The notes beneath the pieces were generated by a model. The model was not told where the DNA came from. It made no database searches and saw nothing but the letters and a program-made list of their open reading frames with translations. A DNA stretch of 64,000 nt, taken from Phycisphaerae bacterium. Its GTDB lineage: Bacteria; Planctomycetota; Phycisphaerae; Sedimentisphaerales; Anaerobacaceae. Numbering within the stretch: the first letter of the stretch is position 1; the number at the start of each line of letters is the position of its first letter. The position numbers and the translations under genes are program-made. Shown piece by piece: positions 241 to 18,462 of this stretch. The stretch covers positions 1 to 64,000 of the forward strand of contig JAAYBV010000038.1 in NCBI GenBank assembly GCA_012744475.1. The letters run 5' to 3'.

Positions 241-329
241 AGACTTCCAGTCGGCCTTTCTTGCCCCCCGTCGCGATTTCGGCCGGGCCTCGTGGCTTCC
301 GACTTCGATGGGGCAGGTGGCGTTCTGCC

Positions 330-1569: not shown

Positions 1570-1595
1570 GGGCTCTCCTGCCTGGGGGAGAGCCC
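1570..1595 (-). terminator. Rho-independent-type terminator after rpsA
   Basis: Perfect 9-bp stem GGGCTCTCC / GGAGAGCCC with an 8-nt loop. Read on the minus strand it lies about 60 nt after the rpsA stop and is followed by CTTTGTC, a weak T-tract. It separates rpsA from the PIN-TRAM gene. Confidence 0.7.
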
Positions 1596-1656
1596 TGAAA
1601 ATCGCTTCAGGCGGCAAGCGATGCTGCCCGCCTCGTTTCTACCGGTCGGCCGGTTC

Positions 1657-3450
1657 TCAGCCTTCTGCACCTTCCTTCTTTTCGGGGGCCGGCTTGGCGG
1701 ACCGCAGGGTGATTCCCAGCGTGTCGCCGCCGGAGGGGTAGGAGCTCTCTTCCCTGGCCACCGGCTGCACCTTCGACGACGGCGCCGGTGCGGCGTGCTC
1801 TTCCTGGGCCCACTGCACCCTTCGCAGACTCAGGCCGATTTTGCGAGCTTCGGGATCGACTTTGAGGATCTTCACCTCGACCTCGTCGTCGGGCTTGACC
1901 ACATCCTGCGGCTTGTCGATCTTGTGATCGGCCAGCTCGGAGATGTGCAGCAGACCTTCCAGGTCCGGCTCCAGCTCCACGAACGCGCCGAAGTTGGTGA
2001 GCTTGGCGATCTTGCCTTTGATGATGTGACCGGGAATGTACTTTTCGGGAATCGCACGAATCCACGGGTCCTCGGTCATCTGCTTGATGCCCAGCGAGAT
2101 CCGTTGCTTGGCCTCGTTGACCTCCAGAACCACACACTTGACTTCCTGACCTTTCTCCAGCGCCTCGCTGGGGTGCCCGAACTTGCGGGTCCAGCTCAGG
2201 TCGGAGATGTGGACCATGCCATCGATGCCCGGCTCGATCTCGACGAAGGCGCCGAAGTTCGTCATACTGCGGACGTTGGCGGTCACCACGGTTCCCGGCG
2301 GATACTTGCGGGCGGCCAGCTCCCACGGATTCTGTTCGGTCTGCTTGATGCCGAGCGAGATCTCCTGTTTTTCCTTGTTGACGTTGAGCACGACGACGTC
2401 GATCTCGTCGCCGAGGTTGACCATCTCGCCGGGATGCGACAGACGCCGGGTCCAGCTCATCTCGCTGATGTGCACGAGGCCTTCGATCCCGTCTTCCAGA
2501 CGGACGAAGACACCGTAGTTCATCACGTTGACGACCTTGCCTTTGACCTTTGCGCCGACCGGGTACTTCGTCTCGACGCTCTCCCACGGACTGGGGCTCT
2601 TCTGCTTGAGGCCCAGCGAGATCTTCTCGCTCTCTTTGTCGACGCCGATGACCACGCACTCGATTTCCTGATCCAGATCGACCACCTCGGAGGGGTGCGA
2701 GATGCGGCCCCAGCTCAGATCGGAGATGTGCAGCAGGCCGTCCAGCCCGCCCAAGTCGACGAACACACCGAAGTCCGCGATGTTCTTGACGATACCCTTG
2801 CGGAGCTGACCGACCTCGATCTCGTTGAGGATCTTCTCTTTGCTGGCGCGGCGCTCTTCCTCGATGAGCTTGCGGCGGGAAACCACGATGTTGCGGTTCT
2901 CCACGTCGATCTTGAGGATTTTGCACTCGACGTCCTTGCCGATGAACCGGCTGATGTCGCCCGGTTTGCGAATGTCAACCTGCGAGGCCGGCAGGAAGAC
3001 CGGAACGCCGATGTCCACGAGCAGGCCACCCTTGATCCGCCGGATGACCTTGCCGCTTACAACGTCCCCTTCCTGCTTGGTGTTGATGATGTGCTCCCAG
3101 CCGCGAATCGTGTCGGCCTTGCGCTTGCTCAGAAGGATCAGCCCGCCGTCCGAGTCGGTGTCCTCCAGCAGAACCTCGATCTCCCGGCCGGGCGCGATCT
3201 CGTCCGGACTGCCGAACTCCCCGGCGTCGACCACGCCCTCGCTCTTCAGACCGACCTCGACGATCACGTCGTTGCCGATCTGAGAGACGATGGTGCCCTT
3301 GAGAATCGTTCCCGGCAGACGCGAGTCCACTTTCTTTTGCAGCATCTGTTCGAGGTACTGGTTCTCCATGTCCCCGAACATCTCGCCGATCTGCTCTTCC
3401 AGTTTCGCGTCGGACAGCCCCAGCTTGTTGACTAAGTTTCGATCTACCAT
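1657..3450 (-). CDS. rpsA: 30S ribosomal protein S1
   Basis: 597 residues with six S1 RNA-binding repeats at about 46-110, 127-194, 213-282, 300-368, 387-455 and 474-543. The last four carry the typical pattern of GVFV or GAFVE followed by GLLHIS or [11 protein letters not shown]1 binds mRNA on the small subunit and helps to start translation. The tail after the sixth repeat is Pro/Lys/Glu-rich and low in complexity. The start ATG at 3450 (MVDRNLVNK) is chosen because AGGGGAA lies about 9 nt upstream; an upstream in-frame start at 3522 would add 24 residues unlike any S1. The gene lies downstream of ispH on the same strand, a neighbourhood known in other bacteria. Confidence 0.95.
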
Positions 3451-3613
3451 AGATTCAGATTCCCCTGTGGAGTCTTTCCGTGCGACCGACCGACGCTCCA
3501 CATACACATCAGCCGGCCTCAATGCCGCAGTGCATCAATCCAAGTTGATATTGGCATCCCCCTGCTCACGCAGCAGAAGGCACTACACGCTCGAACGCGA
3601 CGAGGCGACGGAC

Positions 3614-4465
3614 TCACTGTTCTTCGCCAAATCGCTCCAAATGCTTGACAAATTCTTCAATCACCCAATCCGGAGTGGAGGCCCCGGCCGTCACACCGGC
3701 CACCTTCCTGCCGAAAAGGGTCTTTTTATCAAGTTCGTCCCAATTCTGCAAGTGAAAGGTCGCTTCGTTGTGTTTTTTGCACAGGTCGGCTAGGCGGCGG
3801 GTGTTGGCGCTGTGGAGCCCTCCCAGGACAAACATGATGTCCACCTGCTGGCACAGCTCGATGGCGGACTCCTGTCGTTTGATCGCCTCCTTGCACAGGG
3901 TATTGACCACCTTCAGCTCGCTGAAGCGGCGGCGGGCGATGGCGTCCAGCATCCGTCCGAGATGCTCGGGGCTCTGCGTCGTCTGGCAGACGATGCCCAG
4001 CCGCCCGTTGTGGGGCAGCTTGTCCAGATCCGCCTCGTCGGCCACGACGACCACATCGTTGACGCACCCGACCACCCCCTGGACCTCCGGGTGGTTCTCC
4101 TCGCCGATAATCACGACCTCGTAGCCCTCGGCTTCGAGCTGCTGGACAATCTGCTGGAGGCGCTTGACCAGGACACAGGTGGCGTCCACGATGTGGAAAC
4201 CCTCGTCCTTGAGCCGGCTCAGCTCGCTCGGGGCCACCCCATGAGAGCGGATCAGGACCGTCCCTGAATCCATTTTGTCAATGGAATCGACTGTATGCAG
4301 GCCAGCGGCCCGCAGCCGTTCCACCTCGTCCTTGTTGTGTATTATCGGACCGAGACAGTAGACCGACTGGCCCTCCGGAGCCCGCTTCAACGTCTTCTCC
4401 GCCATGCTGATCGCGTTGCGAACCCCCGGGCAGAACCCGCATTTTGCCGCTACCAGTACCTTCAT
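3614..4465 (-). CDS. ispH: 4-hydroxy-3-methylbut-2-enyl diphosphate reductase
   Basis: 283 residues. IspH is the last enzyme of the MEP isoprenoid pathway. It reduces HMBPP to IPP and DMAPP with a [4Fe-4S] cluster and acts in the cytosol. Visible family motifs: AAKCGFCPGVRNA with C12, YCLGPIIHNKDEV, IRSHGV, VDATC (second cluster cysteine), VNTLCKEAIKRQ (third cysteine region) and the C-terminal GASTPDWVIEEF. The length is normal. The start MKVLVAAK at 4465 is chosen over an ATG 13 codons upstream because the family begins here and GAAGGTGG lies upstream. rpsA starts 163 nt further down on the same strand, so co-transcription is possible. Confidence 0.95.
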   Translation of the reverse strand: MKVLVAAKCGFCPGVRNAISMAEKTLKRAPEGQSVYCLGPIIHNKDEVERLRAAGLHTVDSIDKMDSGTVLIRSHGVAPSELSRLKDEGFHIVDATCVLVKRLQQIVQQLEAEGYEVVIIGEENHPEVQGVVGCVNDVVVVADEADLDKLPHNGRLGIVCQTTQSPEHLGRMLDAIARRRFSELKVVNTLCKEAIKRQESAIELCQQVDIMFVLGGLHSANTRRLADLCKKHNEATFHLQNWDELDKKTLFGRKVAGVTAGASTPDWVIEEFVKHLERFGEEQ

Positions 4466-4600
4466 ATTCGATCCATGCCACCTTCGGCCAATCACGACGC
4501 ACAAACAGAGCGGGAGCGGGCCGATCCACCCACTCCCGTTGACTCCTCTTATCTTACACGTTCACAGGTTCGCGGTGCGGTCCCATCAAACGCGGAATCC

Positions 4601-5290
4601 CTATTCCACCGGCTGAATCCAGAGGTTGCGGTACTCGATCGCAGCGCCCTCGCTCTGGAGGCAGATCTTGCCGCCGCGTTCGGAGCACTGCGTAGCCACG
4701 TTCTGGAGCGTGCCGTTAACCAGTACAACGACCCAGTCGTCCTTGCAGATGATGTCGTAGGCATTCCACTGGCCGGGCTCCTTCTCGCTGCTGTCATGGA
4801 GCTTGATCGTGCGGCGGCCCTGGACTCGACTGCCGCCTCTGGCGTGCTGGGCGGTCTCGACGCCGTCAATAACCCAGAAATCGCCTGCGCTGCCGGCCTG
4901 GAGCTGGCATTCGAGGCTCCTGGGCCAGACCTTGTCGGCCCCGCTGGTGTGCACCAGTACGCCGTTATTGCCCGGCTTGGCGGGCCACCGCCATTCGACG
5001 TGCAGATGGTAGTCGGCATACGGCGTTTCGGTCCGCATGTAGCCGGCCGGCTTGCCCTCACAACGCAGCACACCCTGGCTGATCGACCATGTCTTGGCGA
5101 CGTCGGCGTTCGCGTCGGGCAGGAACAGCTTCCAGCCGGTGAAGTCCGTCCCGTTGAAGAGAACGATCTTCTCCTTTGGCACGGTCGCAGAGACCGCCTC
5201 AACTGCGGCGACCGGTCCGGCCGTCAGAACAATCAGCAGCACCACGGCGACCCCAATCAGGGTCGCGCGCCTTCTATCCTGGCTTGGCAT
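4601..5290 (-). CDS. Secreted DUF1080 (3-keto-disaccharide hydrolase-like) protein
   Basis: 229 residues: a signal peptide (hydrophobic run LIGVAVVLLIVLTAG, cleavage near VAA) followed by one DUF1080 jelly-roll domain. Typical elements are LFNGTDFTGWKL, WRWPAKPGNNGVLVHTSG, SLECQLQAGSAGDFW and the closing IEYRNLWIQPVE. Family members characterised elsewhere cleave 3-keto-glycosides; the substrate here is not readable. The start at 5290 is chosen because AAAGGAG lies about 9 nt upstream; two ATGs further up lack such a site. It is the last gene of a three-gene operon with the Gfo/Idh oxidoreductase 40 nt upstream. Confidence 0.88.
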   Translation of the reverse strand: MPSQDRRRATLIGVAVVLLIVLTAGPVAAVEAVSATVPKEKIVLFNGTDFTGWKLFLPDANADVAKTWSISQGVLRCEGKPAGYMRTETPYADYHLHVEWRWPAKPGNNGVLVHTSGADKVWPRSLECQLQAGSAGDFWVIDGVETAQHARGGSRVQGRRTIKLHDSSEKEPGQWNAYDIICKDDWVVVLVNGTLQNVATQCSERGGKICLQSEGAAIEYRNLWIQPVE

Positions 5291-5330
5291 TTTCGACACT
5301 CCTTTCATCGAACGCGACATCAGCCGACGA

Positions 5331-6653
5331 TCAGACCAACCTCGTCTTGCCCGGAACCGCCACCTCCGGCATGGCCAGCGTGCCGAACTCGTACGCCGGC
5401 GGCGCCAGGTCCAGCTTCGAGGCGTTCATCACCCAGTCCCACTTCAAGGCCCGTCCCGTGTAGGCGCTCATCCGGCCCATGATCGCGGTCATCGTACTCT
5501 CGGCAATCCGCTTGCCCTCGTTCAGACGTTTGCCCTGCCGGATAGCGGCGATCTGATCGGCGTGCTGAGTCAGGCAGGGATCGAACCGGTCCCAGGCGAT
5601 CTCGGCCGCGTTGGGGCCTGTGATCACAACCCGGCCGAAGTCCAGCCGCGCCGAGCCCTTGGTCCCGACGATGTGCTGATAGTGCGGATTCGAGATGCCG
5701 TCCTGCTGGGTGCCCTTGTAGGAAACGCTCACGCCGTTCGCGTACTCGTATTCCACCGCGAAGTGGTCGTAGGAGTCGCCATACTCCGGCTCTGTCCGCT
5801 GTTGCCGGCCGCCCAGGGCAAAGCACTGAACCGGAGGTCCGCCCAGAGCCCAGTTGACGACGTCGAGGTCGTGCACGTGCATCTCGACGATGAAGTCGCC
5901 GCTCAACCAGGTCATGAACAGCCAGCGACGCAGTTGCCATTCCATGTCCGACCACTGCGGTCTTCGTTGCGAAGGCCCCCAGCCACGCATGGCGTCTCCC
6001 AGGCGGAAGCATTGCCCGCTCTGGATCGTGCCCAGCGCGCCGTCGCGAATGCGTTTCATCGCCTCGACCAGGTGCGAAATCCGGCGCATCTGCGTACCGG
6101 CCACAAACGTCAGGCCCTTCTGATCCGCCAGCTCCGCCGAGGCGATCACCGAGCGCACCCCCACCGGATCCACCGCCACCGGCTTTTCGGCAAACACGTG
6201 CTTGCCCGCTTCAAAGGCCGCCCTGATGTGCATCGGGCGGAAATGCGGCGCGGTCGTCAGGATCACCACATCCACGTTCGTCGCCAGCACCTTCTTGTAG
6301 GCGTCCCAGCCGACGAAGCAGGTCTCATCGGTGACTTTGACCTTGTCCCGGATCGGGTTCGGATCTTCGCCTTCCTTGGGTTGTCGGGTCAGCGCCGCGC
6401 GACATCTGTCCAGCGAATCCTTGAACAGGTCGCCCATCGCGATCAGTTCGACGTTCTCGGCCGCCACCAGAAACCGGGAGGTATCGTGCATGCCCCTCCC
6501 GCCGCAGCCAATCAAACCGACGCGGATCTTGTCGCTGCCGGCGGCGAATGCACGCGGGCTCAGGCCCGAGGCCACCGCGGCGGACACTACGCCGGCCGCC
6601 GCCCCTTTCATGAAGTCACGTCTCGATACTGCATGCTTGATTCCATCGTTCAT
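5331..6653 (-). CDS. Gfo/Idh/MocA-family oxidoreductase, twin-arginine exported
   Basis: 440 residues. The N-terminus has a Tat signal (SRRDFMKGAAAGVVSAA), so it is probably exported folded. The Rossmann domain starts with KIRVGLIGCGGRG. The sugar/cofactor motif AEKPVAVDP contains the conserved Glu-Lys-Pro. The C-terminal domain carries GDFIVEMHVHDLDVVNWALGG, as usual in planctomycete members. The family oxidises or reduces sugars and cyclitols with NAD(P). Between two DUF1080 genes, a glycoside 3-dehydrogenase role is likely but inferred. Spacing is 34 nt from the upstream gene and 40 nt to the downstream one. Confidence 0.9.
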   Translation of the reverse strand: MNDGIKHAVSRRDFMKGAAAGVVSAAVASGLSPRAFAAGSDKIRVGLIGCGGRGMHDTSRFLVAAENVELIAMGDLFKDSLDRCRAALTRQPKEGEDPNPIRDKVKVTDETCFVGWDAYKKVLATNVDVVILTTAPHFRPMHIRAAFEAGKHVFAEKPVAVDPVGVRSVIASAELADQKGLTFVAGTQMRRISHLVEAMKRIRDGALGTIQSGQCFRLGDAMRGWGPSQRRPQWSDMEWQLRRWLFMTWLSGDFIVEMHVHDLDVVNWALGGPPVQCFALGGRQQRTEPEYGDSYDHFAVEYEYANGVSVSYKGTQQDGISNPHYQHIVGTKGSARLDFGRVVITGPNAAEIAWDRFDPCLTQHADQIAAIRQGKRLNEGKRIAESTMTAIMGRMSAYTGRALKWDWVMNASKLDLAPPAYEFGTLAMPEVAVPGKTRLV

Positions 6654-6687
6654 CGCTGCACCCCAATCTTGCCGTACATGCGGACCG

Positions 6688-7389
6688 CTATTCCAACGGT
6701 TCTATGTGGATATTGCGAAACTCGATGACGCCCGACTCGACCTGCAGGCCGATGTACCCGCTGCGACGGGTCAGGCCCGGATGTCGCTCGTACAGATAAG
6801 GATAGAACGTCACGTCGGTGTCGACGACCTGCTTTCCGTTCAGAGCCACAGCGATGCGCGAACCGCGGCACTTGATCGCCATCTGCTGCCACTGGCCGGC
6901 CCCGCGGCCCGCTCGCTCGGACGGCGCCTGAATGTCAAAAAGGCTGCCGGTAAACTGGTCCGGCTGCAGATCACCCCACTCGCGCGTCGCATCGTCGAGA
7001 ATCTGGACTTCGATTCCCGCATGGGAAGGATCGCCTCGCAGTGGAGACCGGAGGAAGACGCCGCCGTCGGCGCCCGGCGAGATTCGGAACTCCAGCGACA
7101 GCACAAAGTCGCCGTACTGGTCCACTGTCGCCAGCCAGCCGGCCCCGGATGCCGCAGAAGCGTCCGCACCTGCCGAGGCCGCATCCGACGACGCTCGACC
7201 CGTGAGCACGCCGTCCGTCAGCCGCCAGCGGCCCTGCTCGCTCCCGATCACCTGCCAGCCGACCAGACCGGTCGCGAGCAGATCGGTCCGTTGCGACTCG
7301 CGGCAGAACCGCGCCGGCGTACAGGAACCGAGTATCATGACGGCACAAAGCAAGAAAATGAATGGCCCGGCCTGGCCTGCATGACGCAT
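6688..7389 (-). CDS. DUF1080 lipoprotein (3-keto-disaccharide hydrolase-like)
   Basis: 233 residues, first gene of the operon 7389-4601. The N-terminus is a lipoprotein signal with lipobox LGSC (FLLCAVMILGSCTPA), so it should be membrane-anchored. DUF1080 features: GWQVIGSEQGRWRLTDGVL, FVLSLEFRISPGADGGVFLRS, GIEVQILDD and the final GVIEFRNIHIEPLE. The start at 7389 is well fixed by GGAGGTG 5-6 nt upstream. It is only distantly similar to the copy at 4601-5290, so the two may take different substrates. An upstream in-frame extension has no coding character. Confidence 0.87.
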   Translation of the reverse strand: MRHAGQAGPFIFLLCAVMILGSCTPARFCRESQRTDLLATGLVGWQVIGSEQGRWRLTDGVLTGRASSDAASAGADASAASGAGWLATVDQYGDFVLSLEFRISPGADGGVFLRSPLRGDPSHAGIEVQILDDATREWGDLQPDQFTGSLFDIQAPSERAGRGAGQWQQMAIKCRGSRIAVALNGKQVVDTDVTFYPYLYERHPGLTRRSGYIGLQVESGVIEFRNIHIEPLE

Positions 7390-7578
7390 ATCACACCTCC
7401 TGCTGGTGTAGCGGATTGGCCCCCCCCGCGTTCGATTGACATCGCTCATAGTGTCGTCGCATTTCGACACGCACGCCTTAGTAGAAACCATCGGCCCAAA
7501 GCTCACAGGGCCAAGGCTACCGGGTCGCCCGGCGGCCGTCAAGTGCATTTCGCCGCTTCCACAGGTCCGTGCGTTTGC

Positions 7579-7607
7579 TTGACGCGGCTGCCGCCTTGCG
7601 ATACGAT
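7579..7607 (+). promoter_or_regulatory. Sigma-70-type promoter candidate for the cyclotransferase gene
   Basis: TTGACG, a 17-nt spacer, then TACGAT. The predicted transcript start (about 7614) leaves a leader of about 37 nt before the ATG at 7651. Confidence 0.55.
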
Positions 7608-7650
7608 TGATCGGTGTCGTGAGATGATGTCGGCGCGAGAGAATGGGCCT

Positions 7651-8589
7651 ATGTCGGATCGAAACTGGATGCAGCAGCCGTCGGGTTCGCCTGGCCAGGC
7701 CGAAGCAGGAAGGGATGTGCGGTGGGCTCTCGATCTGCGCAGAGGCCTGCGGATGGCGGCGATGCTCGTGCTCTGGGCCGGCGTCACCCTGCCGGCCGGG
7801 CGCGCGGTGATCGCCACACAGCAGAGCGCCGAGGCGAATTCCCCGCCCCCTGAAACCGCGCCGCCGCCCGAGGAAGCCCCGGTCGTCTACTACGGCTACA
7901 ACATCGTCCGGACCTATCCGCACGATGAACGCAACTTCACCCAGGGTCTGGTCTACGAGGACGGCTATCTCTACGAAGGGACCGGGCTCTACAAGCAGTC
8001 GGTGCTGACCAGGCGCCACCTCGAAAGCGGCCGGTATGTCAAGCGGCTCCGTCTGCCCGATCAGTACTTCGGCGAGGGGATCGCGCTCTTCGGCGACAAG
8101 GTCATCCAACTGACGTGGAAATCCGAGGTGGCGTTCGTCTACGACAAGACGACGTTCCGCGAACTGGAGCAGTTCCATTTCAGCGGCCAGGGCTGGGGCC
8201 TGACCAGCGACGGAACCCGGCTGATCCTCAGCGACGGGACCAGCGTGCTGCGTTTTCTCGACCCAAACACCTACGTCGAAACCGGCCGCCTCCGCGTCCA
8301 CAACGACCGCCGCCCGGTGCGCCAGATCAATGAGCTGGAGTTCATCGACGGGCAGATCTACGCCAACATCCTGCCGACCGATTACATCGCCATCATCTCG
8401 CCGCAGACCGGCCGCATCACCGGCTGGATCGACCTGACGGGCCTCTACATCCCTCCCGAGTACAGCCCCTCCAACATCGTCCTCAACGGCATCGCCTATA
8501 TCCCCGAAACCAGGCATCTGCTCGTCACCGGCAAGTGCTGGCCCAAGATCTACGAGATCGAGCTGGTCCCGCAGACCGCCGAGCCGTAG
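7651..8589 (+). CDS. Glutaminyl-peptide cyclotransferase (plant/bacterial type)
   Basis: 312 residues. It matches the five-bladed propeller glutamine cyclotransferase family, which turns N-terminal glutamine of peptides into pyroglutamate. Motifs: YPHDERNFTQGLVYEDGYLYEGTG, in the usual place, then FGEGIALFG, IQLTWKSEVAFVYD, GWGLTSDG, INELEFIDG and NIVLNGIAY. A hydrophobic helix (MAAMLVLWAGVTLPAG, about residues 33-48) and a Pro-rich linker precede the enzyme, so it is exported or anchored. The start is uncertain: ATG 7651 has only a weak Shine-Dalgarno site, and ATG 7624 is in frame. A promoter candidate ends at 7607. It converges on the GH20 gene. Confidence 0.87.
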   Translation: MSDRNWMQQPSGSPGQAEAGRDVRWALDLRRGLRMAAMLVLWAGVTLPAGRAVIATQQSAEANSPPPETAPPPEEAPVVYYGYNIVRTYPHDERNFTQGLVYEDGYLYEGTGLYKQSVLTRRHLESGRYVKRLRLPDQYFGEGIALFGDKVIQLTWKSEVAFVYDKTTFRELEQFHFSGQGWGLTSDGTRLILSDGTSVLRFLDPNTYVETGRLRVHNDRRPVRQINELEFIDGQIYANILPTDYIAIISPQTGRITGWIDLTGLYIPPEYSPSNIVLNGIAYIPETRHLLVTGKCWPKIYEIELVPQTAEP

Positions 8590-8613
8590 CGGCGAACAAT
8601 CATTCGCCCGTAC
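8586..8613. repeat. 28-nt palindromic repeat, copy 2, between convergent genes
   Basis: Begins GTAGCGGCGAAC and ends ATTCGCCCGTAC. Its second to fourth bases are the TAG stop of the cyclotransferase gene, and it ends 2 nt before the stop of the convergent GH20 gene. The position suits a bidirectional terminator. Confidence 0.75.
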
Positions 8614-8614
8614 T

Positions 8615-10219
8615 TCAATCGAGCGGCCGGAACGTGATGCCCAAGACCCGCAGCCGTTCGAGGTGGTGACGCAATCGGCTGACGAACTGCTCGTAGTCCT
8701 TCGCCTCCCTCGCCGACCAACCGATCTCCGCCAGCGCCGCCGCACGCGGATAGGCCATATAGTACCGATGCGCAGGCGTGGCAATGAACTCGCCCCAGAG
8801 CTGGCCCTGCACGCCCAGCACATGCCTGACCCTGTCGGGCGCGATGGCCTCCGGCACGGGATCGTAGGAGTACACCTGGGCCAGCGGCAGGTTCCCTCCG
8901 ATCGCCAAAGGCTCCGACGCGGCCGGGCCTTGATAGTAGTCGAAGTACGTGTGCGACGTCGGCGCCATCACGACGTCGTGCCCGGCGTTGGCGGCCGCGA
9001 TGCCCCCCTGCTCGCCCCGCCACGACATGACCGTGACCCCGGGCGCCAGGCCGCCCTGCAGAATCTCGTCCCAACCCACCAGCCGCCGGCCGTGACTCGA
9101 CAGGAACGCGTCCATCTGCGCGATGAACCAACTGTGCAGCCCGTGGGCGTCCTTGAGCTGCAGTCGTTTCATCTGCGCCTGCATCTCGGGGTCGTTGGTC
9201 CAAAGCTCGATGTTCGCTTCGTCGCCACCGATGTGGATATGCCTGCTCGGAAACAGCTCCATCACTTCGGTCAGCACATCCTGGAAAAAGATGACCGTTT
9301 GCGGACGGGGCGCGACCAGACCCGAGGTCTCGCGCCATCGCTTCTGGGGTTCCAGCGAGGCGAGGCGATCCGGTGCAATGCCCAGTTCCGGGTAAGCGAC
9401 GATCTCGGCTCCGGCGTGGAACGGCATCTCAATCTCCGGCACGATCGTGATGTGACGGTCGGCCGCGTACTGGACGATCTGGCGAATGTCGTCCTGCGTA
9501 TAGAAGCCGAAGCAGCGCGGCCCCGTGCCGTCGCGATGGCGGAGGTTCCAGTCCATCTGCGAACCGAGTTCTGTGAGCTGGGGGTACTTCTTGATCTCGA
9601 TCCGCCAGCCCTCGTTGTCCGTCAGATGGATCTGCAGACGGTTGAACTTGTGCAGCGCCATCACGTCGAGGAAGCGCAGCACGTCGTCTTTGGCGATAAA
9701 GTGACGGGCCGGATCGATCAGCAGACCGCGCCAGCCAAAGCGAGGATGGTCCGTGATCCTCACGCAGGGCACGTCCCACGCAACATCGTCCACTCTCGTC
9801 GGACGCAAGACCGCCGCAGGCAGAAGCTGCCGCAGCGTCTGGATGCCATAGAACAGCCCTGCCGGCTGCGCCGCAACGATCGCGACCTGTTCCGGCGTCA
9901 CGCGCAGCTCGTAGCCCTCGGCGCCGAGCGTCGAGAGGCTATCGTCCAGCCGCATCTCGATGGCCCGCTCGCCCGGCTTGGATGACGTCGTCGGTTCCAG
10001 CACAAATCCCATCGCCGGCGCCAGCGCTGCGGCCAGCTTCTTCGCCTCGACCGCCGCCGCACCCTGCGCGACGATCCGCGTCGAAGGCGTGACACGAAAG
10101 GCCCCGTCCGCCCGCTCGACCGCGACCGGCTGCGGAATCACGTTGATGTCGCCACCGCTCGCCCTCGACGACAACCCCAAAACCAGAACCACTCCAAACG
10201 CCATCACAGATCGCAGCAT
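8615..10219 (-). CDS. Beta-N-acetylhexosaminidase, GH20
   Basis: 534 residues with a signal peptide (SVMAFGVVLVLGLSSRASG). An N-terminal GH20b-like domain (about 25-150) precedes the TIM barrel. The barrel carries DHPRFGWRGLLIDPARHF, KFNRLQIHLTDNEGWRIEI, IVPEIEMPFH and the catalytic Asp-Glu pair in HIHIGGDEANIELW (about residues 326-333). The family releases terminal GlcNAc or GalNAc from chitin fragments or glycans, using the substrate's acetamido group as nucleophile. It ends in a usual form (LRVLGITFRPLD). The start follows AAAGGGA by about 9 nt. It is transcribed alone and was probably exported for glycan use. Confidence 0.92.
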   Translation of the reverse strand: MLRSVMAFGVVLVLGLSSRASGGDINVIPQPVAVERADGAFRVTPSTRIVAQGAAAVEAKKLAAALAPAMGFVLEPTTSSKPGERAIEMRLDDSLSTLGAEGYELRVTPEQVAIVAAQPAGLFYGIQTLRQLLPAAVLRPTRVDDVAWDVPCVRITDHPRFGWRGLLIDPARHFIAKDDVLRFLDVMALHKFNRLQIHLTDNEGWRIEIKKYPQLTELGSQMDWNLRHRDGTGPRCFGFYTQDDIRQIVQYAADRHITIVPEIEMPFHAGAEIVAYPELGIAPDRLASLEPQKRWRETSGLVAPRPQTVIFFQDVLTEVMELFPSRHIHIGGDEANIELWTNDPEMQAQMKRLQLKDAHGLHSWFIAQMDAFLSSHGRRLVGWDEILQGGLAPGVTVMSWRGEQGGIAAANAGHDVVMAPTSHTYFDYYQGPAASEPLAIGGNLPLAQVYSYDPVPEAIAPDRVRHVLGVQGQLWGEFIATPAHRYYMAYPRAAALAEIGWSAREAKDYEQFVSRLRHHLERLRVLGITFRPLD

Positions 10220-10325
10220 GGCCAGGTCCCTTTCAAAATCACCGCATCAGAACCGACCATACCGCCCCCCGCCCCGCCCCGCAATCCCAAACTCCACCGG
10301 AACCGGTCGCGACACACACTTGACG

Positions 10326-10470
10326 CAGCCGGGAGATCCCTGTAGACTATCTCCCGGATGTGCGAAGGGAAGCTATGCGACGAGAGGTTCCCACAATCTG
10401 GCTCCCAATGCCGCCCAGCAAGTACATGCGGAGCGATAATGATTATCGAAAGGCCTGACCCCGAACCCTC
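10326..10470 (+). repeat. 145-bp repeat, copy 1
   Basis: Same length as 12610-12754, with only three differences found by eye. It opens with a perfect 9-bp hairpin (CCGGGAGAT at 10329-10337, ATCTCCCGG at 10349-10357) and ends with a module holding CGATAA-TGA-TTATCG and AAAGGCCTGACCCC. The last 25 bases before GAACCCTC recur inverted at 14221-14245. It lies in the gap between the GH20 gene and an A/T-richer cassette. No transposase is present in it. Confidence 0.85.
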
Positions 10471-10477
10471 TCATGCC

Positions 10478-10651
10478 ATGAAATATGAAAACTCCATTCG
10501 AAAGGCCCTTTGGATGTACGATCCGACGCAGGCAACTCTATATCCTAGGCCAGGTTATTTAGCAGACGTCGACGACTTGGGGTCAACTGTAAGGGAGGTC
10601 TGGAAGAATTACGATTGGAGGAAGTTGACATATGGAAGGCGGCGTCAATAG
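10478..10651 (+). CDS. Possible small protein, 57 aa, unrecognised
   Basis: An A/T-richer open frame starting MKYENSIRKALWMYDP directly after the 145-bp repeat and ending LTYGRRRQ. No Shine-Dalgarno site is visible, and its end overlaps the next small frame by 20 nt. It could be a real short gene or the tail of a longer gene cut by the repeat. Nothing resembles a known domain. Confidence 0.25.
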   Translation: MKYENSIRKALWMYDPTQATLYPRPGYLADVDDLGSTVREVWKNYDWRKLTYGRRRQ

Positions 10652-10808
10652 GATCTCTATCGTTGAGGATTTGCGTTGCCTGACCAAGATCACGGATCAG
10701 AAATTGAACCTCATAATATCAGAGAGGAGAATGGCTATCTGTCGGTCTGGCACTCCTGTCATGATCGTGAACGCATGCGTCGAAGTTCTGCCAAAACTCG
10801 CTGGATAG
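10632..10808 (+). CDS. Possible small protein, 58 aa, unrecognised
   Basis: ATG 10632 follows GGAGGA by about 9 nt, and the stop TAG lies at 10806-10808, 15 nt before the next gene. The product begins MEGGVNRISIVEDLRCL and ends VNACVEVLPKLAG; it has no signal peptide or membrane helix. The good ribosome site and tight spacing to 10824 suggest a real first gene of a short operon. No function can be named. Confidence 0.4.
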   Translation: MEGGVNRISIVEDLRCLTKITDQKLNLIISERRMAICRSGTPVMIVNACVEVLPKLAG

Positions 10809-10823
10809 TGAAAGGGATCTCGA

Positions 10824-12467
10824 ATGACAGCCGGAGACAAGCGTGATCCAGCATCTGTGACACAGGAAGCGAGGGCCAGTGACGCGAAAGCAATAACTGT
10901 TGTCCTATCCCTTTGTGTCGTAAGCAGTCTTGTGATACAGCCTAAAGCACGTGGCCACACTGAAGGCGAGAGTCAGTCGATGGAGCCAACATTTGTGCTG
11001 ACGCAATTGGATGCTACCGATAGCGCTCTTGAGATTAGCTATCGGATTAACAATAATTCTGATCAGGAGATATGGCTGTGCAAGAATCTCGGCTCTGTCT
11101 TCCAGTACTTCAGTTCTGAAGTGTCTATGACTGACGATGGTGAGACCCTCTTAGTCCGCAGACGCCTTGACGTCCCGATAACCGGATTTGCGGAGCAAGT
11201 CTTTGGCAGCTTCATCCGCATACCGAGAGCAAGTAGCCTGGGGGAGACCGCGCTGTTTCCTTTGCCCGTTCGGCCTCATCGTGTCACTTTGCCAGCACGA
11301 GGCAGAGATGAGGCCATCAAATACGTGAAACGGCTCCGAATTGAGGTCGGCTACTACTCCGGCGACCTGCTCCAGATGATTTCGCGCATGCTTGAGGACG
11401 CGCCGAGCGATCCTCAGGCAGAACATGTCGACGATGTGGGCTATCCGACCGATGCTATTGGCTGGTTTGGCAATTCAATATGGTTCAATAAACTCAACGA
11501 GATCGTGCCAGATAGAAACAAGCAGGTCGTGATCCCTTGGACAAACCAAAGCCTCAAAGGTGAGCAAGTCCTCCATGCTGTGATTGGAAACCTCCACGTA
11601 CCCTATGTGGAAAAGGCGGATTTCATGAAGTCTTCATTGGAGAGTTTGCAGGATTGTACCAGGGCAGAGGTCCACTATCAACCCTCTCTATTCGAGTACC
11701 TCTTTCCTCATCCCATCCAACAGGGAGTTCTGGATTATGATGAGAGAAGATATCTGCAAGCTCAGAAGAGACTCCTTGTTGAGGATCCGATTTTGATCAG
11801 TGGCTTGATCAATGGAATCAGCAAGGAGAAAGACCGGAATAGCTGCAGCAGTTGTATCTTGCCTGACCGAAGCACCATGGCTCATGTTGTGTGCTACCGA
11901 GGGCATGAGCGATTGGCATCTTTCGTCGTTTACGATGGCACGACTATCGTGACTGACGATAGGCGATGCTATCGGTACCTCGAGGAGCCTGCTAGCATAA
12001 GAACCATCACATCGGCCATAGAGTGGGTTGAGCCTTTTCGGCTTCGTGTTGCGTGCGCCGCCAATCTCAGTACGCTTTGGTATCGCCTGCGTCTCTATCA
12101 TCAAGCTGAGAGATTACATCTTGAGAATTCGCCTAGTGGAGGGCAGGTAGTATATCCCGCTTCAGAGAGATGGTGTGATGCTATGTTGCAGATCCTCCAG
12201 ATTGCAGAACATGCTGTGAAGGCATATGAGTGTCCTGACGCCGGCGAAGGTCCATGTACCTATGCAATGAACTCGAATTGCGAGCCAGATTCGCCGGGGG
12301 ATACAGTACTGCTTTTCGAGACAAAACCGGGGTGGAACCAGCACGGCGGGCCGGAATTGTTCACGTTCGACAACCACGAGCCCAAAGGCGGCTGCGTCCT
12401 GCTCAACGACGGCACCGTGAAGTTCATCCGCACCGAAGAAGAACTCCACGCCCTCCGGTGGAAGTAG
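10824..12467 (+). CDS. Hypothetical protein with planctomycete C-terminal module
   Basis: 547 residues, not recognised as a whole. A hydrophobic stretch near residues 24-38 (ITVVLSLCVVSSLVI) suggests a signal or anchor. Residues 50-470 resemble no family I know and are encoded by DNA visibly richer in A/T than the neighbourhood. The last 55-60 residues (ETKPGWNQHGGPELFTFDN, CVLLNDGTVKFI, TEEELHALRWK) look like the DGTVKFI-type ending common in planctomycete secreted proteins and pseudopilins, and are encoded in GC-rich DNA. The start follows AAAGGGA by 6 nt. The gene lies between the two 145-bp repeats, which points to an acquired or rearranged cassette. Confidence 0.7.
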   Translation: MTAGDKRDPASVTQEARASDAKAITVVLSLCVVSSLVIQPKARGHTEGESQSMEPTFVLTQLDATDSALEISYRINNNSDQEIWLCKNLGSVFQYFSSEVSMTDDGETLLVRRRLDVPITGFAEQVFGSFIRIPRASSLGETALFPLPVRPHRVTLPARGRDEAIKYVKRLRIEVGYYSGDLLQMISRMLEDAPSDPQAEHVDDVGYPTDAIGWFGNSIWFNKLNEIVPDRNKQVVIPWTNQSLKGEQVLHAVIGNLHVPYVEKADFMKSSLESLQDCTRAEVHYQPSLFEYLFPHPIQQGVLDYDERRYLQAQKRLLVEDPILISGLINGISKEKDRNSCSSCILPDRSTMAHVVCYRGHERLASFVVYDGTTIVTDDRRCYRYLEEPASIRTITSAIEWVEPFRLRVACAANLSTLWYRLRLYHQAERLHLENSPSGGQVVYPASERWCDAMLQILQIAEHAVKAYECPDAGEGPCTYAMNSNCEPDSPGDTVLLFETKPGWNQHGGPELFTFDNHEPKGGCVLLNDGTVKFIRTEEELHALRWK

Positions 12468-12478
12468 GGCCAAGATAG

Positions 12479-12609
12479 ATGACGAGTATCGTGCACAGGC
12501 GGGCGATGCAAGAGGAGCCGGGGACGGTCACGTTCTGGTGGAAGGTCTCGTCCGAGGCAAATTGCGACTGGCTGTCGTTCTACGCGGACGGGGTGCTCCA
12601 AGACCGGAT
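12479..12609 (+). pseudogene. Fragment of a secreted-protein domain, cut at the repeat
   Basis: In one frame it reads EPGTVTFWWKVSSEANCDW, then LSFYADGVLQDRIS, a beta-sandwich segment seen in large secreted planctomycete proteins. The reading runs straight into the 145-bp repeat and stops at 12742 with unrelated residues. No start, ribosome site or domain end is present. The homologous following segment occurs at 14335-14459. Confidence 0.6.
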
Positions 12610-12754
12610 CAGCCGGGAGATCCCTGTAGACTATCTCCCGGATGTGCGAAGGGAAGCTATGCGACGAGAGGTTCCCACAATCCGGCTTCCAATGCCGCCC
12701 AGCAAGTGCATGCGGAGCGATAATGATTATCGAAAGGCCTGACCCCGAACCCTC
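12610..12754 (+). repeat. 145-bp repeat, copy 2
   Basis: Second copy of 10326-10470, same orientation, with about three base differences. The hairpin arms are at 12613-12621 and 12633-12641. It abuts the broken domain fragment on its left and the ankyrin gene on its right (28 nt before the ATG), so the promoter of that gene may lie in or beyond the repeat. Confidence 0.85.
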
Positions 12755-12782
12755 AATTGTCCTTCAGTCAAGGAGTGTTCAA

Positions 12783-14114
12783 ATGCAGACGAGTATGCGG
12801 CTATGCGCGGTCCTGGCGGGGATGGTCCTGTTGAATGGATGTGATAGACAGGAGCCGAATAGGACAGCGACGCGTTTGCGCGAGGCCGTAGCGGCCAATA
12901 GGCTCGATCTGGCGAAGTCACTTCTTGAAGAGGGTGCTGAAATCAACTGCCAAGACCGACACGGGCAAACCCCTCTTCATTTGGCTTCAAAGAATGGCCA
13001 TGCAGAAATGGTCGAGTTTCTGCTGGCCGAGGGGGCAGACGTCAACGCGATAGACGACGTCTTCGGGTACACCGCCTTGCACTACGCCGCTTGCATCGGG
13101 AATGAGACCATTGCGGCGACTTTGTTGAGCAAGGGGGCCGGGGTCAATGCGAGGAGCCAATCCGACGAGACTCCTTTGCACTGCGCTGCCGAATACAACC
13201 ATGGAGGCACGGCCGAGTTGCTTCTTCGGCATGGTGCCGAGATCAATGCCGTTACGACGCTTGACCAGAGTCCACTTCACTTGGCGTGCAGCAGGGCCAA
13301 CGAGGCCGTTACCAAGATTCTCGTAGCACACGACGCCAATGTCGATGCGAAGGATCGCAGGGGCCGTCACCCGATTGATTATGCCATCCTGGAGGGATCT
13401 CGGACACTGGTCGAACTCCTTGCCGATGCCGGAGCCGACCTGGACAGTGCCGGGCAGGATGAGGAGGGCGCTGCCGTCTTTGCCATGCGATGCGGGCAGC
13501 AGGCAATAGCTGGCGATCTGGCCAAGAACAAGGGATGTGTGCTCACGATCCACCTTGCGGCTTATCTGGGAGACCTAGAAGCACTGAAGAACTTTCTCGA
13601 CGGAGGCACTGACGTGAACGTGCGAGACAAGGACGGTTGCACACCATTACATGCGGCCGCGAGGGGCGCGGAGCGTTCGGCAACGGCCTTTCTGCTGGAA
13701 AGCGGAGCCAATCCCATTGCTGAAGATAAGAGGCGGGATACTCCGCTCCACGAGGCGGCCTACCGTGGCAGTTCTGAAGTCATAGAGTGTTTGCTGGCCC
13801 ACGGGGCAGATGTCAAAGCCGCTGGCGACGGCAATTGGACAGCACTTCACTCTGCGGCGGCAGGAGGACACATAGAGGCGGCCAGAACGCTCATTGCCCA
13901 CGGAGCCGACGTCAACGCGGCAAATGAGGTCGGTATGACGCCGTTGCACACGGCTTCGCGTGCGGGTCGCAAGGAGGTAGTGCAATTGCTTTTGGCATCA
14001 GGTGCCGACGCCGCGATAGGGGATAATTCGAGGTCGACAGCACTCGATATGGCAGCGCAGAGTGGCCACAAGGATATCGTCGAGTTGCTGCGTAACTACA
14101 CAGCGAATAACTGA
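12783..14114 (+). CDS. Ankyrin-repeat lipoprotein
   Basis: 443 residues. The lipoprotein signal has its cysteine at about residue 20 (VLAGMVLLNGCDRQ). After it come about twelve ankyrin repeats, many with the canonical TPLH.A....G....V..LL..GADVNA pattern. Ankyrin arrays bind protein partners; the target is unknown, and the location should be the periplasmic or outer membrane face. GGAG lies 7 nt before the ATG at 12783. A related lipoprotein is at 51873-53132, which has an extra C-terminal domain. This gene stands between copy 2 of the 145-bp repeat and an inverted 25-bp remnant of it, so it may have moved with the repeat. Confidence 0.85.
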   Translation: MQTSMRLCAVLAGMVLLNGCDRQEPNRTATRLREAVAANRLDLAKSLLEEGAEINCQDRHGQTPLHLASKNGHAEMVEFLLAEGADVNAIDDVFGYTALHYAACIGNETIAATLLSKGAGVNARSQSDETPLHCAAEYNHGGTAELLLRHGAEINAVTTLDQSPLHLACSRANEAVTKILVAHDANVDAKDRRGRHPIDYAILEGSRTLVELLADAGADLDSAGQDEEGAAVFAMRCGQQAIAGDLAKNKGCVLTIHLAAYLGDLEALKNFLDGGTDVNVRDKDGCTPLHAAARGAERSATAFLLESGANPIAEDKRRDTPLHEAAYRGSSEVIECLLAHGADVKAAGDGNWTALHSAAAGGHIEAARTLIAHGADVNAANEVGMTPLHTASRAGRKEVVQLLLASGADAAIGDNSRSTALDMAAQSGHKDIVELLRNYTANN

Positions 14115-14220
14115 CTGCGCGTGTGGACTAACGCGGACGGGCCCCATTATGAGATTGCGGAGGAGGGGGCCAGCCCTCAAAATACAAATTAGGCTTTCTG
14201 AAGTAGGCGGGCAAGGATTT

Positions 14221-14245
14221 GGGGTCAGGCCTTTCGATAATCATT
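14221..14245 (-). repeat. Inverted 25-bp remnant of the 145-bp repeat
   Basis: GGGGTCAGGCCTTTCGATAA plus five bases is the exact reverse complement of positions 10438-10462 within copy 1 and of the same part of copy 2. With copy 2 it forms an inverted pair around the ankyrin gene. Confidence 0.75.
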
Positions 14246-14334
14246 AACAGGCCGACGGGCGGGCCATGATCTTGGAACGAGGCATGATGCGTTTGTCGGC
14301 CACGTGGGTGACGCAACGTGGCGGTTCGCTGCGC

Positions 14335-14459
14335 GATGGCGTGCTTCAGGACCGGATCAGCGGGGAGGTGGGCTGGCTGCAGAAGTCGTACCCGCTGGGC
14401 GGGACGGGACGCACGCCCTGGTCTGGGTGTACAGCAAGGACAGCAGCAGCGACAGGTAG
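14335..14459 (+). pseudogene. Frameshifted fragment of the same secreted-protein domain
   Basis: One frame reads DGVLQDRISGEVGWLQKSYPLG. After a frame change it continues THALVWVYSKDSSSDR and then meets a TAG supplied by a palindromic repeat. The first part is homologous to the end of the 12479-12609 fragment (DGVLQDRIS in both) but differs at silent positions, so the two pieces come from related repeats or paralogues. No intact gene is present. Confidence 0.6.
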
Positions 14460-14483
14460 GGGCGAATAATCATTCGCCCCTAC
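14456..14483. repeat. 28-nt palindromic repeat, copy 3
   Basis: Both 12-nt arms, GTAGGGGCGAAT and ATTCGCCCCTAC, are exact, with centre AATC. Its TAG terminates the domain fragment to its left. Confidence 0.85.
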
Positions 14484-14489
14484 GTCTCC

Positions 14490-14680
14490 AGTGGGCGCCC
14501 AGTGGTGGTGGAGGCGGTGGCTCGTCGACAACCGACTGGGAGCAGATCACCTACACCTACGACCCCTCCGGCCGGCGGATCGCCAAGGACGTCGATGGCG
14601 AGGTGATGGCGGCGGCCGGTGGGCCGAGGCCCACTCTACGCCTGGGATATGCGTTCGACGCGGGCCAAGCACTTTCGTAG
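14490..14680 (+). pseudogene. Remnant of an RHS/YD-repeat protein
   Basis: The frame reads a glycine/serine run, then TTDWEQITYTYDPSGRRIA, a clear YD-repeat of the RHS type, followed by KDVDGE and LRLGYAFDAGQALS, then a stop. Only one repeat is left, with no start or ribosome site. RHS proteins are large secreted or polymorphic-toxin scaffolds; this is a decayed piece. Confidence 0.6.
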
Positions 14681-14844
14681 GCTGGATTTCGAGAAATGCG
14701 GAGGGAACACATGCGTAGAGCGGCTTGGACAATCCGGCGATGTACACCCACGGCTGCGGCCGCATGCGACGTCCCGCCGTCCATCCGCCCGCACGACTCC
14801 GCAGGTGCATATCGCTGGACCACACGTTCTTGGGAGGCCTTCAC

Positions 14845-15477
14845 ATGAAACGCAAGCTACAGACTCCGATCATGGTCATTCTACTTGTCCTGCTTCCGCT
14901 CATCGCTTTTTCAGGAGCCGAACAGACGCCGTCCGAATCCTACTATGAACGATTGAAGTCACTGGTGAGGGTGAGAGAGGGATACGATGTCTCGATTCAT
15001 CCGACCGCGAAAGACCGAGACGTCAACCTGATAGAGATCGAAAAGGGGGCTGCGGGCGTCGTCTTTGGCGCGTCGATGGATGATGTGATCGCGGTCTGGA
15101 GAAAGCCAGAGTCCATCTGGATCGACGGGATCAGGGAGGCTTGGTTTCTGGGGATTGGCGGATGCGAATTCGGCTTTGTCGACAATCGCCTTACCACCAT
15201 CGCTGTTCCGTCGTTCTCAATCAGGAAAGCCCATCTGGCAAACGGCATCGGCTTTGAATCCTCCTATGATGAAGTGAAGTCTGCTTTGGGTGAGCCTGTA
15301 AAGGCGACAGACTCCAGGCTTCGCTTCGTGACCAAGAGTGGTTATACGGTCAACTTTGACTTCGTTTCGGATGAATGGAGTTCGGGTAAACGTAGGCTCC
15401 AATGCATCAAGATATCATGCCCCGATTCAGGGGAATTTGTGCGAAGCCGCTTCGACAGAGGAGGGCCAACGCGGTAG
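14845..15477 (+). CDS. Secreted hypothetical protein with two internal repeats
   Basis: 210 residues. Signal peptide MKRKLQTPIMVILLVLLPLI with likely cleavage after FSGA. The mature part holds two related segments, GVVFGASMDDVIAVWRKP and GIGFESSYDEVKSALGEP, each followed by short beta-strands; the pattern recalls BamE/SmpA-like small-domain proteins, but this is not secure. The DNA is less GC-rich than the neighbours. GGAGG lies 7 nt before the ATG at 14845. It follows RHS remnants, so an orphan partner or immunity protein is conceivable, though nothing proves it. Confidence 0.65.
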   Translation: MKRKLQTPIMVILLVLLPLIAFSGAEQTPSESYYERLKSLVRVREGYDVSIHPTAKDRDVNLIEIEKGAAGVVFGASMDDVIAVWRKPESIWIDGIREAWFLGIGGCEFGFVDNRLTTIAVPSFSIRKAHLANGIGFESSYDEVKSALGEPVKATDSRLRFVTKSGYTVNFDFVSDEWSSGKRRLQCIKISCPDSGEFVRSRFDRGGPTR

Positions 15478-16131: not shown

Positions 16132-18462
16132 ATGTTCAAGAAACGAACCCCGGAACGGACGTCCCGGCGCTCCGGGACGCTCCTGCGCAGTTTCGTGCTC
16201 GGGCTGACACTAATCCTGACCTCTATCGGCGTCGCAGCCGATCCCTCGCTGGTCGGATGGTGGACGTTCGACGAGGGCTCGGGAACGGTCGCCCACGACG
16301 CCAGCGGGCGGGGCCACGACGGCACGCTCCGGGGCGGTCCGGAGTGGGTGATCGGACGCGTCGACGGCGCGCTGCTGTTCGACGGCAAAGACGACTACGT
16401 GAACATCGGGAGCGTGGGAATCAGCGTGGCCGTCGACAGAACGGTTATGGCGTGGGTCAAGGCCAGCACGGCGACCATACCCGACAAGACGAGCGTCTTC
16501 GGCTTCGTCCCGGACGGAAGCATCGAGGGCACCTATTATGACATGGAAGTGGACGACAAGGGCAACTACATCGCCCACATCTGCGGCTACCAGTGGGTCC
16601 TCGCGCCGGTCGACACGGAATGGCACCATATGGCCGGCACCTACGAAACCGGCACGGGCAGTTGGTTCCTGGACGGCCGGTTCATCGACAGCGCGGATGG
16701 AGACATCGGGACGATCGACCAGGTGCGGATCGGCACGCGGCCCAGCAGCGGCAACTACTTCCCCGGACTGGTGGACGATGTGCGCATCTACAACCGCGCG
16801 ATGACGGAGGCTGAGATTCAGTCCGTGATCGCGGGCACCGACCTGGGGCAGGCGACCGACCCCAGCCCGGCGCACGGGGCACTGGATGTCCCGCGTGACG
16901 CGGTGCTGTCGTGGACGCCCGACGCCTCCGCCGTCCGGCACAACATCTATCTGGGCACGAACTGGGACGACGTGCGTAGCGCCAGCACCGCCGATCCGCG
17001 AGGTGCGCTGGTCGGTCAGGGGCAGGCCGGAGCCACGTTCGATCCCGAGGGTCTGCTCGCGTTGAACCAGACGTATTACTGGCGCATCGACGGCATCGGC
17101 GCCGCTCCCGACAACACCGTATTCAAAGGCAGGGTCTGGAGCTTCGCGTCGGAGTCTTTTGCCTATCCCATCGAGAACATCGTGGCCACCGCGTCGCACG
17201 CGGACGCCGACGCCGGACCGGAGAACACGGTTAACGCCTCCGGCGTGAACGCACAGGACCAGCACTCCATGAACTCGCGTGACATGTGGCTGGCCAGCCC
17301 CGGCCCCGACGAGCCTGTGTGGATTCAGTACGACTTCGATCGCGTCTACAAGCTCCACCAGATGCTGGTCTGGAACTACAACACAGAGTTCGAACTGCTG
17401 CTCGGCTTCGGCCTTAAGAACGTCACGGTCGAATACTCGGCCGACGGCGCTGAGTGGGTTGCACTGGGAGACGTCGAGTTCGCCCAAGCGACGGCCAACC
17501 CCTCGTACGTGTACAACACGACGGTGGATTTCGAGGGCGTTGCGGCCAGGAGCGTCCGCCTGACCGTCCGCAGCGGCTACGGGCTCATCGCGCGGTACGG
17601 CCTCAGCGAGGTGCGGTTCCTGTACATCCCCGCGCACGCGCGCCGACCGCAGCCCGCCGACGGCGCCACCGACGTGGAGATCGGCACGACCCTGAGCTGG
17701 AGCAGCGGACGCGAAGCCGCGTCACACGAGGTCCATCTGGGCGCCGATCCGGCAGTTCTCGCGCTGATCGGCACGCCCGAGACCGCCAGCCTGCCGCCGG
17801 GCGATCTGGCCTTCGGAACGAGCTACTACTGGAGGGTGGACGAGGTCAACGAGGCCGAGGCCATCGGCCTGTGGGAAGGCGATCTCTGGAGCTTCACCGT
17901 CGAGGAGTACGCGAGCATCGACGATTTCGAGAGCTACAACGACGACGTCGACGCCGGCACGACGATCTTCGACGCCTGGCTTGACGGCTGGGTCAACGAC
18001 ACCGGATCGACGGTCGGCTACCTCAATGCGCCGTTCGCCGAGCGGACCATCGTCCACGGCGGCGAGCAGTCGATGCCGCTGGCATACGATAACTCGGCTT
18101 CGCCGTTCTACTCGGAGGCCGAGCGGACCTTCGAGCAGGCTCAAGATTGGACGATCGGCGGAGCCGACCACCTGCGGCTGTGGTTCCGGGGCGATGCCGA
18201 GAACACGCCGCAGACGCTCTACGTCACGCTGGAAGACAGCGCCGGACACACCGCCACCGTCCGCGGCGCGGACCCGGACGCGGTTGTCACGACCACCTGG
18301 CAAGATTGGCAGATCGCGCTGAGCGAGTTCGGCGGGATCGGCCTGGCCAAGGTGGAAAAGATAACCATCGGCGTCGGCAACCGGACCAGCCCGGCCGCCG
18401 GCGGAACCGGCATCGTCTACATCGATGATGTCGGGTTCGGCCGCCCCGCTGCCACGCCATAG
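16132..18462 (+). CDS. Large secreted protein with LamG and discoidin-like domains
   Basis: 776 residues. Signal peptide (LLRSFVLGLTLILTSIGVAA). A LamG/concanavalin-like domain spans about residues 33-230 (SLVGWWTFDEGSG to DDVRIYNRAMTEAE). Two Fn3/Ig-like modules share the pattern of NIYLG or EVHLG, then NQTYYWRIDGI or GTSYYWRVDEVNEA. Between them lies an F5/8 type C-like domain (PVWIQYDFDRVYKLHQMLVW). A last jelly-roll domain, about residues 600-776, contains ADHLRLWFRGD. Such proteins bind carbohydrate or cell surfaces; no catalytic residue is apparent. AGGAGG lies 7 nt before the ATG. A strong terminator follows, so it is monocistronic. Confidence 0.85.
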   Translation: MFKKRTPERTSRRSGTLLRSFVLGLTLILTSIGVAADPSLVGWWTFDEGSGTVAHDASGRGHDGTLRGGPEWVIGRVDGALLFDGKDDYVNIGSVGISVAVDRTVMAWVKASTATIPDKTSVFGFVPDGSIEGTYYDMEVDDKGNYIAHICGYQWVLAPVDTEWHHMAGTYETGTGSWFLDGRFIDSADGDIGTIDQVRIGTRPSSGNYFPGLVDDVRIYNRAMTEAEIQSVIAGTDLGQATDPSPAHGALDVPRDAVLSWTPDASAVRHNIYLGTNWDDVRSASTADPRGALVGQGQAGATFDPEGLLALNQTYYWRIDGIGAAPDNTVFKGRVWSFASESFAYPIENIVATASHADADAGPENTVNASGVNAQDQHSMNSRDMWLASPGPDEPVWIQYDFDRVYKLHQMLVWNYNTEFELLLGFGLKNVTVEYSADGAEWVALGDVEFAQATANPSYVYNTTVDFEGVAARSVRLTVRSGYGLIARYGLSEVRFLYIPAHARRPQPADGATDVEIGTTLSWSSGREAASHEVHLGADPAVLALIGTPETASLPPGDLAFGTSYYWRVDEVNEAEAIGLWEGDLWSFTVEEYASIDDFESYNDDVDAGTTIFDAWLDGWVNDTGSTVGYLNAPFAERTIVHGGEQSMPLAYDNSASPFYSEAERTFEQAQDWTIGGADHLRLWFRGDAENTPQTLYVTLEDSAGHTATVRGADPDAVVTTTWQDWQIALSEFGGIGLAKVEKITIGVGNRTSPAAGGTGIVYIDDVGFGRPAATP

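Follow-up and report, generated by a model that had tools for sequence, protein, structure and literature searches.

A dispersed promoter-start repeat as the probable 5' boundary of orphan RHS-tip and immunity-like cassettes in a genus of Phycisphaerae

The window, that is the whole stretch of 64,000 nucleotides that was analysed (Phycisphaerae bacterium, assembly GCA_012744475.1, contig JAAYBV010000038.1, positions 1 to 64,000; contig C10 of the source genome G000), harbours three consecutive units, each consisting of a short repeated module and the gene behind it: module 1 with a 547-aa protein, module 2 with an ankyrin lipoprotein and module 3 with a 210-aa secreted-type protein. The features of this array are the following.

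8615-10219, minus strand: gene for a glycoside hydrolase of family 20, at the end of the left synteny block
10310-10403, plus strand: module 1 (profile match, E=2.3e-25; promoter scan match at 10320)
10320-10325, plus strand: -35 of module 1, TTGACG
10326-10470, plus strand: 145-bp unit, copy 1, from the repeat search
10343-10348, plus strand: -10 of module 1, TAGACT, after a 17-nt spacer
10358-10651, plus strand: 97-aa open reading frame leaving the unit, weak coding evidence
10364-10370, plus strand: Shine-Dalgarno sequence of module 1, GAAGGGA
10375-10377, plus strand: start codon of module 1
10375-10458, plus strand: leader open reading frame of 27 codons (MRREVPTIWLPMPPSKYMRSDNDYRKA), peptide without sign of selection
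10437-10462, plus strand: END3, copy 1 (TAATGATTATCGAAAGGCCTGACCCC), a separate short repeat in the last ~30 bp of the unit
10824-12467, plus strand: 547-aa cargo protein with a signal-peptide-like N-terminus, a domain at aa ~24-262 and a C-terminal domain ending in an H-x-DG tail
12479-12609, plus strand: RHS fragment, truncated (...FWWKVSSEANCDWLSFYADGVLQDRIS), with its junction to copy 2 at GATCAGCcGGGAGaT
12610-12754, plus strand: 145-bp unit, copy 2, canonical -35 replaced by RHS-fragment sequence
12783-14114, plus strand: ankyrin-repeat lipoprotein cargo, Imm-Ank-like, lipobox LLNGC
14215-14603, plus strand: RHS fragment (VLQDRISGEV...ITYTYDPSGRRIAKDVDG) with homology to the sequence following the RHS unit on contig C65
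14221-14246, minus strand: inverted END3 copy closing the ankyrin cargo
14646-14738, plus strand: module 3, diverged (profile match, E=2.5e-6)
14845-15477, plus strand: secreted-type cargo gene behind module 3, 210-aa protein (open reading frame 14725-15477, GC3 0.65)

The original prediction, made from the letters of this stretch, had described two repeats of 145 nt in the same direction with about three differences, which are indeed present and differ at exactly three positions (10399 T/C, 10404 C/T, 10424 A/G). Equally, the 9-bp hairpin claimed for the start of the unit (CCGGGAGAT...ATCTCCCGG) and the palindrome claimed near its end (CGATAATGATTATCG at 10434-10448) were recovered, neither half being expected by chance (0 in 100 shuffles), and no transposase lies between the copies, as had been stated. 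Searching the whole genome with the unit, a check proposed at the same time, retrieved further copies. Near-full copies amount to six on four contigs (two each on C10 and C85, one each on C42 and C50), which present a common structure in six places and are for the most part mutually 92-98% identical; additionally, the 5' half was found without the rest in four places and the last ~30 bp by itself in further ones. As the 5' half and the last ~30 bp also occur separately, the 145-bp unit is a composite, with a module at its 5' end and END3 as its 3' tail. The 97-aa open reading frame had no match in a Pfam search, an Rfam search of 9-16 kb of the window gave nothing real and a search for plasmid DNA gave no match. 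A reading of GTGCG as part of a group II intron was abandoned once the promoter alignment had been made.

The 5' two thirds of the unit represent a module of ~95 bp, in which the aligned copies share TTGAC, a 17-nt spacer, TANNNT, the Shine-Dalgarno sequence ATGTGCGAAGGGA, the start ATG CGN NGA GAG and then a few conserved codons. The spacing of 17 nt was found by pattern matching in 15 of 17 modules; TTGA, GGG and the start region are invariant across the aligned modules, and -35, -10, Shine-Dalgarno sequence and start constitute the most conserved parts of the module across the genomes of the genus. This arrangement corresponds to a predicted sigma-70-type promoter followed by a brief leader and a start codon. 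In copy 2 the truncated RHS fragment lies upstream, joined at GATCAGC[C/G]GGGAG[A/G]T, and the copy is left without a -35. The hairpin, which overlies the spacer and the -10, is perfect over 9 bp in the two C10 copies exclusively and partly retained elsewhere, with the same positions pairing in 68% of cells across 15 modules versus 26-46% when slid along the alignment; this dyad may be a weak operator or due to chance. A hairpin sequestering the ribosome binding site was also considered and rejected as too weak, with one compensatory pair only. Comparison of the 27-codon leader among six copies gave 9 synonymous and 18 non-synonymous changes, and no purifying selection on the peptide was seen in these copies.

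Counts across the six genomes of the genus are based on a sequence profile of the module, R1, which identified 36 modules distributed over all six genomes, 16 of them in the source genome. Matches of the unit in a blastn search against 89 genomes of the family were confined to the genus and none was found in the viral contigs searched for the module, while a pattern scan of named genomes matched in Phycisphaerales bacterium Planc_01 only, at loci overlapping those of genome G002, which we take to be this same organism. Within one genome, a near-identical predicted promoter sequence stands before non-homologous genes, as is characteristic of mobile promoters, and the similarity between modules spans the 5' leader and about ten codons.

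The tail END3 has 21 matches in the genome at up to 3 mismatches, whereas its reversed control has none. Within the 145-bp units it forms the end of the leader; elsewhere it is found inverted, downstream of a cargo gene and ahead of an RHS fragment, and on C65 it closes a complete unit of RHS core, tip and partner gene. Inverted END3 pairs enclose cargo at copy 2 of C10 and at both C85 copies, and most module copies are devoid of END3. It could be either a functional site or the shared edge of duplicated segments; an identity as transposon end or Tn3-like terminal repeat was dismissed on account of wrong orientation and length. A separate REP-like family is represented at 14455-14484 by a short palindromic repeat of which the genome has dozens of further copies.

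The gene for the 547-aa protein is A/T-richer than its surroundings, as originally claimed, with a GC content of 0.52 and a GC3 of 0.56-0.57, and cargo behind modules is A/T-rich overall (median GC3 0.63 versus 0.84, p=6e-9), whereby the host reference of 0.84 is the median of window genes only and thus a rough yardstick. The gene is not foreign to the group: orthologs are present at other loci in two sister genomes (G002 and G003), with no RHS gene found near either, and 94 of the order's 161 genomes have relatives, many of which share the C-terminal domain only. A chimeric origin, considered for the GC jump at the end of the gene, was discarded as the orthologs carry the same tail. The H-x-DG tail (12270-12467) is common to many proteins of the order, and a free-standing copy of it adjoins a 547 ortholog at locus L064.

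The family of the 547 N-terminal domain is encoded directly behind RHS tips with the motif AHE[LMI]xHA at four loci, each in a different genome (G000 C65, G046, G037 and G039); at a fifth RHS locus, on C18 of G001, the tip is different and a gene of the NDL family lies in between. Metalloprotease-like RHS tips with this motif are located at L024:10973-12100, L143:562-1458, L207:567-1421 and L204:4477-5480, and those of L024 and L143 had no match among Pfam toxin models. The 547 family itself matches no Pfam or NCBIfam model and consequently belongs to no named immunity family, and a single-sequence structure prediction was unusable (pLDDT 34). The neighbourhood of RHS tips fits a putative immunity or partner protein, but most full-length relatives reside away from RHS genes, so that this function is proposed only.

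Among the other cargo, the ankyrin lipoprotein (Pfam Ank_2, 4e-115 on the longer open reading frame 12642-14114) matches the Imm-Ank type, while its unlike neighbour, the 547 protein, is tied to RHS tips by neighbourhood only. Of RHS itself, no core was found in the window's own cassette, which holds the fragments 12479-12609 and 14215-14603. The former exists intact in the 2572-aa RHS protein of locus L181 in G001, a full-length protein that reveals the source of the RHS pieces; the latter is 86% identical to C65:33184-33568. Further along the window, 16195-18441 belongs to a gene family of which every member of the genus carries tens of diverged copies in its genome.

What follows the module elsewhere links it to RHS tips. 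At two loci of G002 the frame opened by the module ATG continues into an RHS-associated core; one of them retains an intact tip in a 361-aa open reading frame starting at the module (TIGR03696, 89 bits versus a cut-off of 32.5) and has core and variable tip but not the large N-terminal body of RHS proteins, that is an orphan RHS tip cassette, whereas the other has a stop after the core. On C80 a 5'-only copy reads into an RHS-upstream domain at the contig end. The 547 family is found behind modules on C10 and on C27 of G003, with its N-domain on C30; ankyrin lipoproteins on C10 and on C23 of G001 (module G1C23_2); the YYQAC family on C46; and the NDL family on C25 and as second gene on C85; further genes stand behind other modules. 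Some weaker modules (G0C61, G1C5, G4_3) precede GC-rich, host-like genes, hence not all cargo is RHS-linked. The cargo was set against the DNA that follows RHS cores in relatives, over ~1.4-4.5 kb: of 12 cargo genes, a small set chosen post hoc, 4 matched behind RHS tips, versus 3 of 124 control genes (p=0.001), the three being prepilin-type genes. Several cargo genes, from families following RHS tips, are thus probably orphan immunity or partner genes. Other module-borne genes (L241, L252-L256) appear defence-like by eye, including an HD-domain protein and a NACHT-like ATPase.

Comparison with sister genomes places modules at junctions of synteny. Window positions 316-10147 are collinear with G001, G002 and, to its contig's limit, G003, with homology ending at ~10299, ~20 bp before the -35 of module 1, and 23.3-30 kb has its collinear counterpart on a different contig of the sister genomes; as the flanking blocks match different sister contigs, the array occupies an intervening stretch with no match. 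On contig C27 of G000 the left flank is that of G003, where the module carries the 547 gene, and the right flank is that of G001, where the module carries the ankyrin gene; the homology to the latter begins inside the module, and the left-flank match stops 250-480 bp before it. Synteny switches at the module with the cargo changing too, and C27 represents the best evidence that the sequence behind a module may be exchanged. Both junctions, at copy 1 and on C27, suggest exchange of cargo at the module, presumably by homologous recombination. On the other hand, the modules of C61 and of C32 in G001 are orthologous on both sides, so not all modules are mobile. The recombination scar that the original prediction offered as the vehicle of the cassette comes close to these findings, with further copies, a cassette absent from the syntenic locus of close relatives and synteny breaking at the module. 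The chief technical risk lies in misassembly at repeats: G000, in 118 contigs, seems to be a draft assembly, some RHS-related contigs end in these repeats and some junctions could be erroneous. Contigs C65, C64 and C80 end inside RHS-related repeats, and the RHS loci of G000 are therefore incompletely assembled.

The 145-bp unit is probably a dispersed promoter-start module combined with a boundary repeat, which would mark the 5' end of orphan RHS-tip cassettes and now front orphan immunity-like or accessory genes. The RHS body is missing here as at most other copies, where the module directly precedes an accessory gene; a gene captured in this way would gain an immediate promoter and an mRNA leader, and the recurrence of the module at many loci would offer homology for recombination swapping the downstream DNA. 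Promoter activity, immunity function and homologous recombination as the route of spreading are what we infer from the sequence. Passive debris, that is RHS-locus fragments duplicated along with accessory genes and with no role in expression or exchange, is an unlikely account of the repeats, since debris would not retain -35, -10, Shine-Dalgarno sequence and start as its most conserved parts and the same module precedes unrelated genes in distant contexts, even if the truncated RHS fragments around the copies, the leader peptide free of selection and a copy 2 lacking its -35 speak for it.

Alternatively, the unit might be a non-autonomous MITE or REPIN-like transposable element that ends in END3, depends on mobilisation in trans and includes an incidental promoter, which would agree with an END3 that occurs 21 times, often in inverted pairs around cargo, and with a long unit of common structure at six places. 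Yet the one Y1_Tnp gene of the genome lies away from all copies and without the repeats in its flanks, which led to rejection of a link to an IS200/REP (Y1) transposase; the aligned flanks display no common or sharp left border, no target-site duplication and no paired ends on most copies; most modules are without END3, four copies are 5'-only, and at most copies the END3 pairs are oriented wrongly to bound the unit, which renders this explanation quite improbable. Of the original prediction, mobilisation in trans thus gained no support and the scar was near; it missed that most of the repeat is a predicted promoter and translation start tied to RHS cassettes. A very improbable alternative is the ordinary conserved promoter of one regulon, reflecting shared regulation and neither shared descent nor capture: the conserved spacing and the partly conserved dyad over the -10, a conceivable repressor site, would suit it, but a similarity through the 5' leader and ~10 codons is too long for convergent regulation, the 145-bp units are too alike and synteny breaks at the module. 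An extension of the preferred reading, a module that bounds and starts RHS-derived cassettes, is more speculative and rather doubtful: the genus might run an integron-like capture without integrase, with the fixed module as docking site for the exchange of RHS tips, immunity genes and other foreign genes, in which case a newly landed gene would be expressed at once.

Orphan RHS tips and immunity genes are already known, and the expression of a lone immunity gene after loss of the weapon is mostly unclear. A repeated promoter-start before orphan tips and lone partner genes would provide a concrete and testable expression route, and the module may show how RHS-partner genes are captured, swapped and switched on. 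Furthermore, foreign genes and defence-like cargo can be sought with the model R1 as sequence handle in a phylum for which few tools exist, and the family of the 547 protein, which is widespread and has no name, is linked to metalloprotease-like RHS tips.

Several known systems bear resemblance. As in REP/REPIN elements with their RAYT transposases, END3 is short, dispersed, partly palindromic, intergenic and often arranged in inverted pairs; unlike them, it has no linked RAYT and its pairs enclose whole genes. Mobile promoters have reportedly been described by Matus-Garcia in 2012 and by van Passel in 2014. In the form in which they are cited in PMC8049555, these are equally short repeated promoters before non-homologous genes in one genome; compared with that account, the present module includes a leader and a start codon, is associated with RHS cassettes and is limited to one genus, and its spread resembles a homologous exchange that involves the flanking cargo more than the insertion of a promoter alone. 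Ankyrin immunity proteins (Imm-Ank) have been described in planctomycetes (PMC3482391), and polyimmunity loci (PMC3482391) would be alike in the adjacent unlike immunity-type genes, ankyrin included, with no toxin beside them, whereby toxin neutralisation is putative here; unlike there, each gene has its own repeat promoter module and the 547 family is unnamed. There is also a likeness in layout to orphan rhs-CT and cdiA-CT immunity arrays (PMC3150448, PMC3967940), in which detached RHS core and tip segments with a small gene are arrayed, recombination between conserved segments can load new tips and orphan immunity genes are kept and expressed. The main contrast is that most orphan tips of E. 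coli lack translation initiation signals (PMC3150448), whereas here a dedicated and dispersed predicted promoter with start codon precedes the tips and, mostly, a partner gene whose tip is gone.
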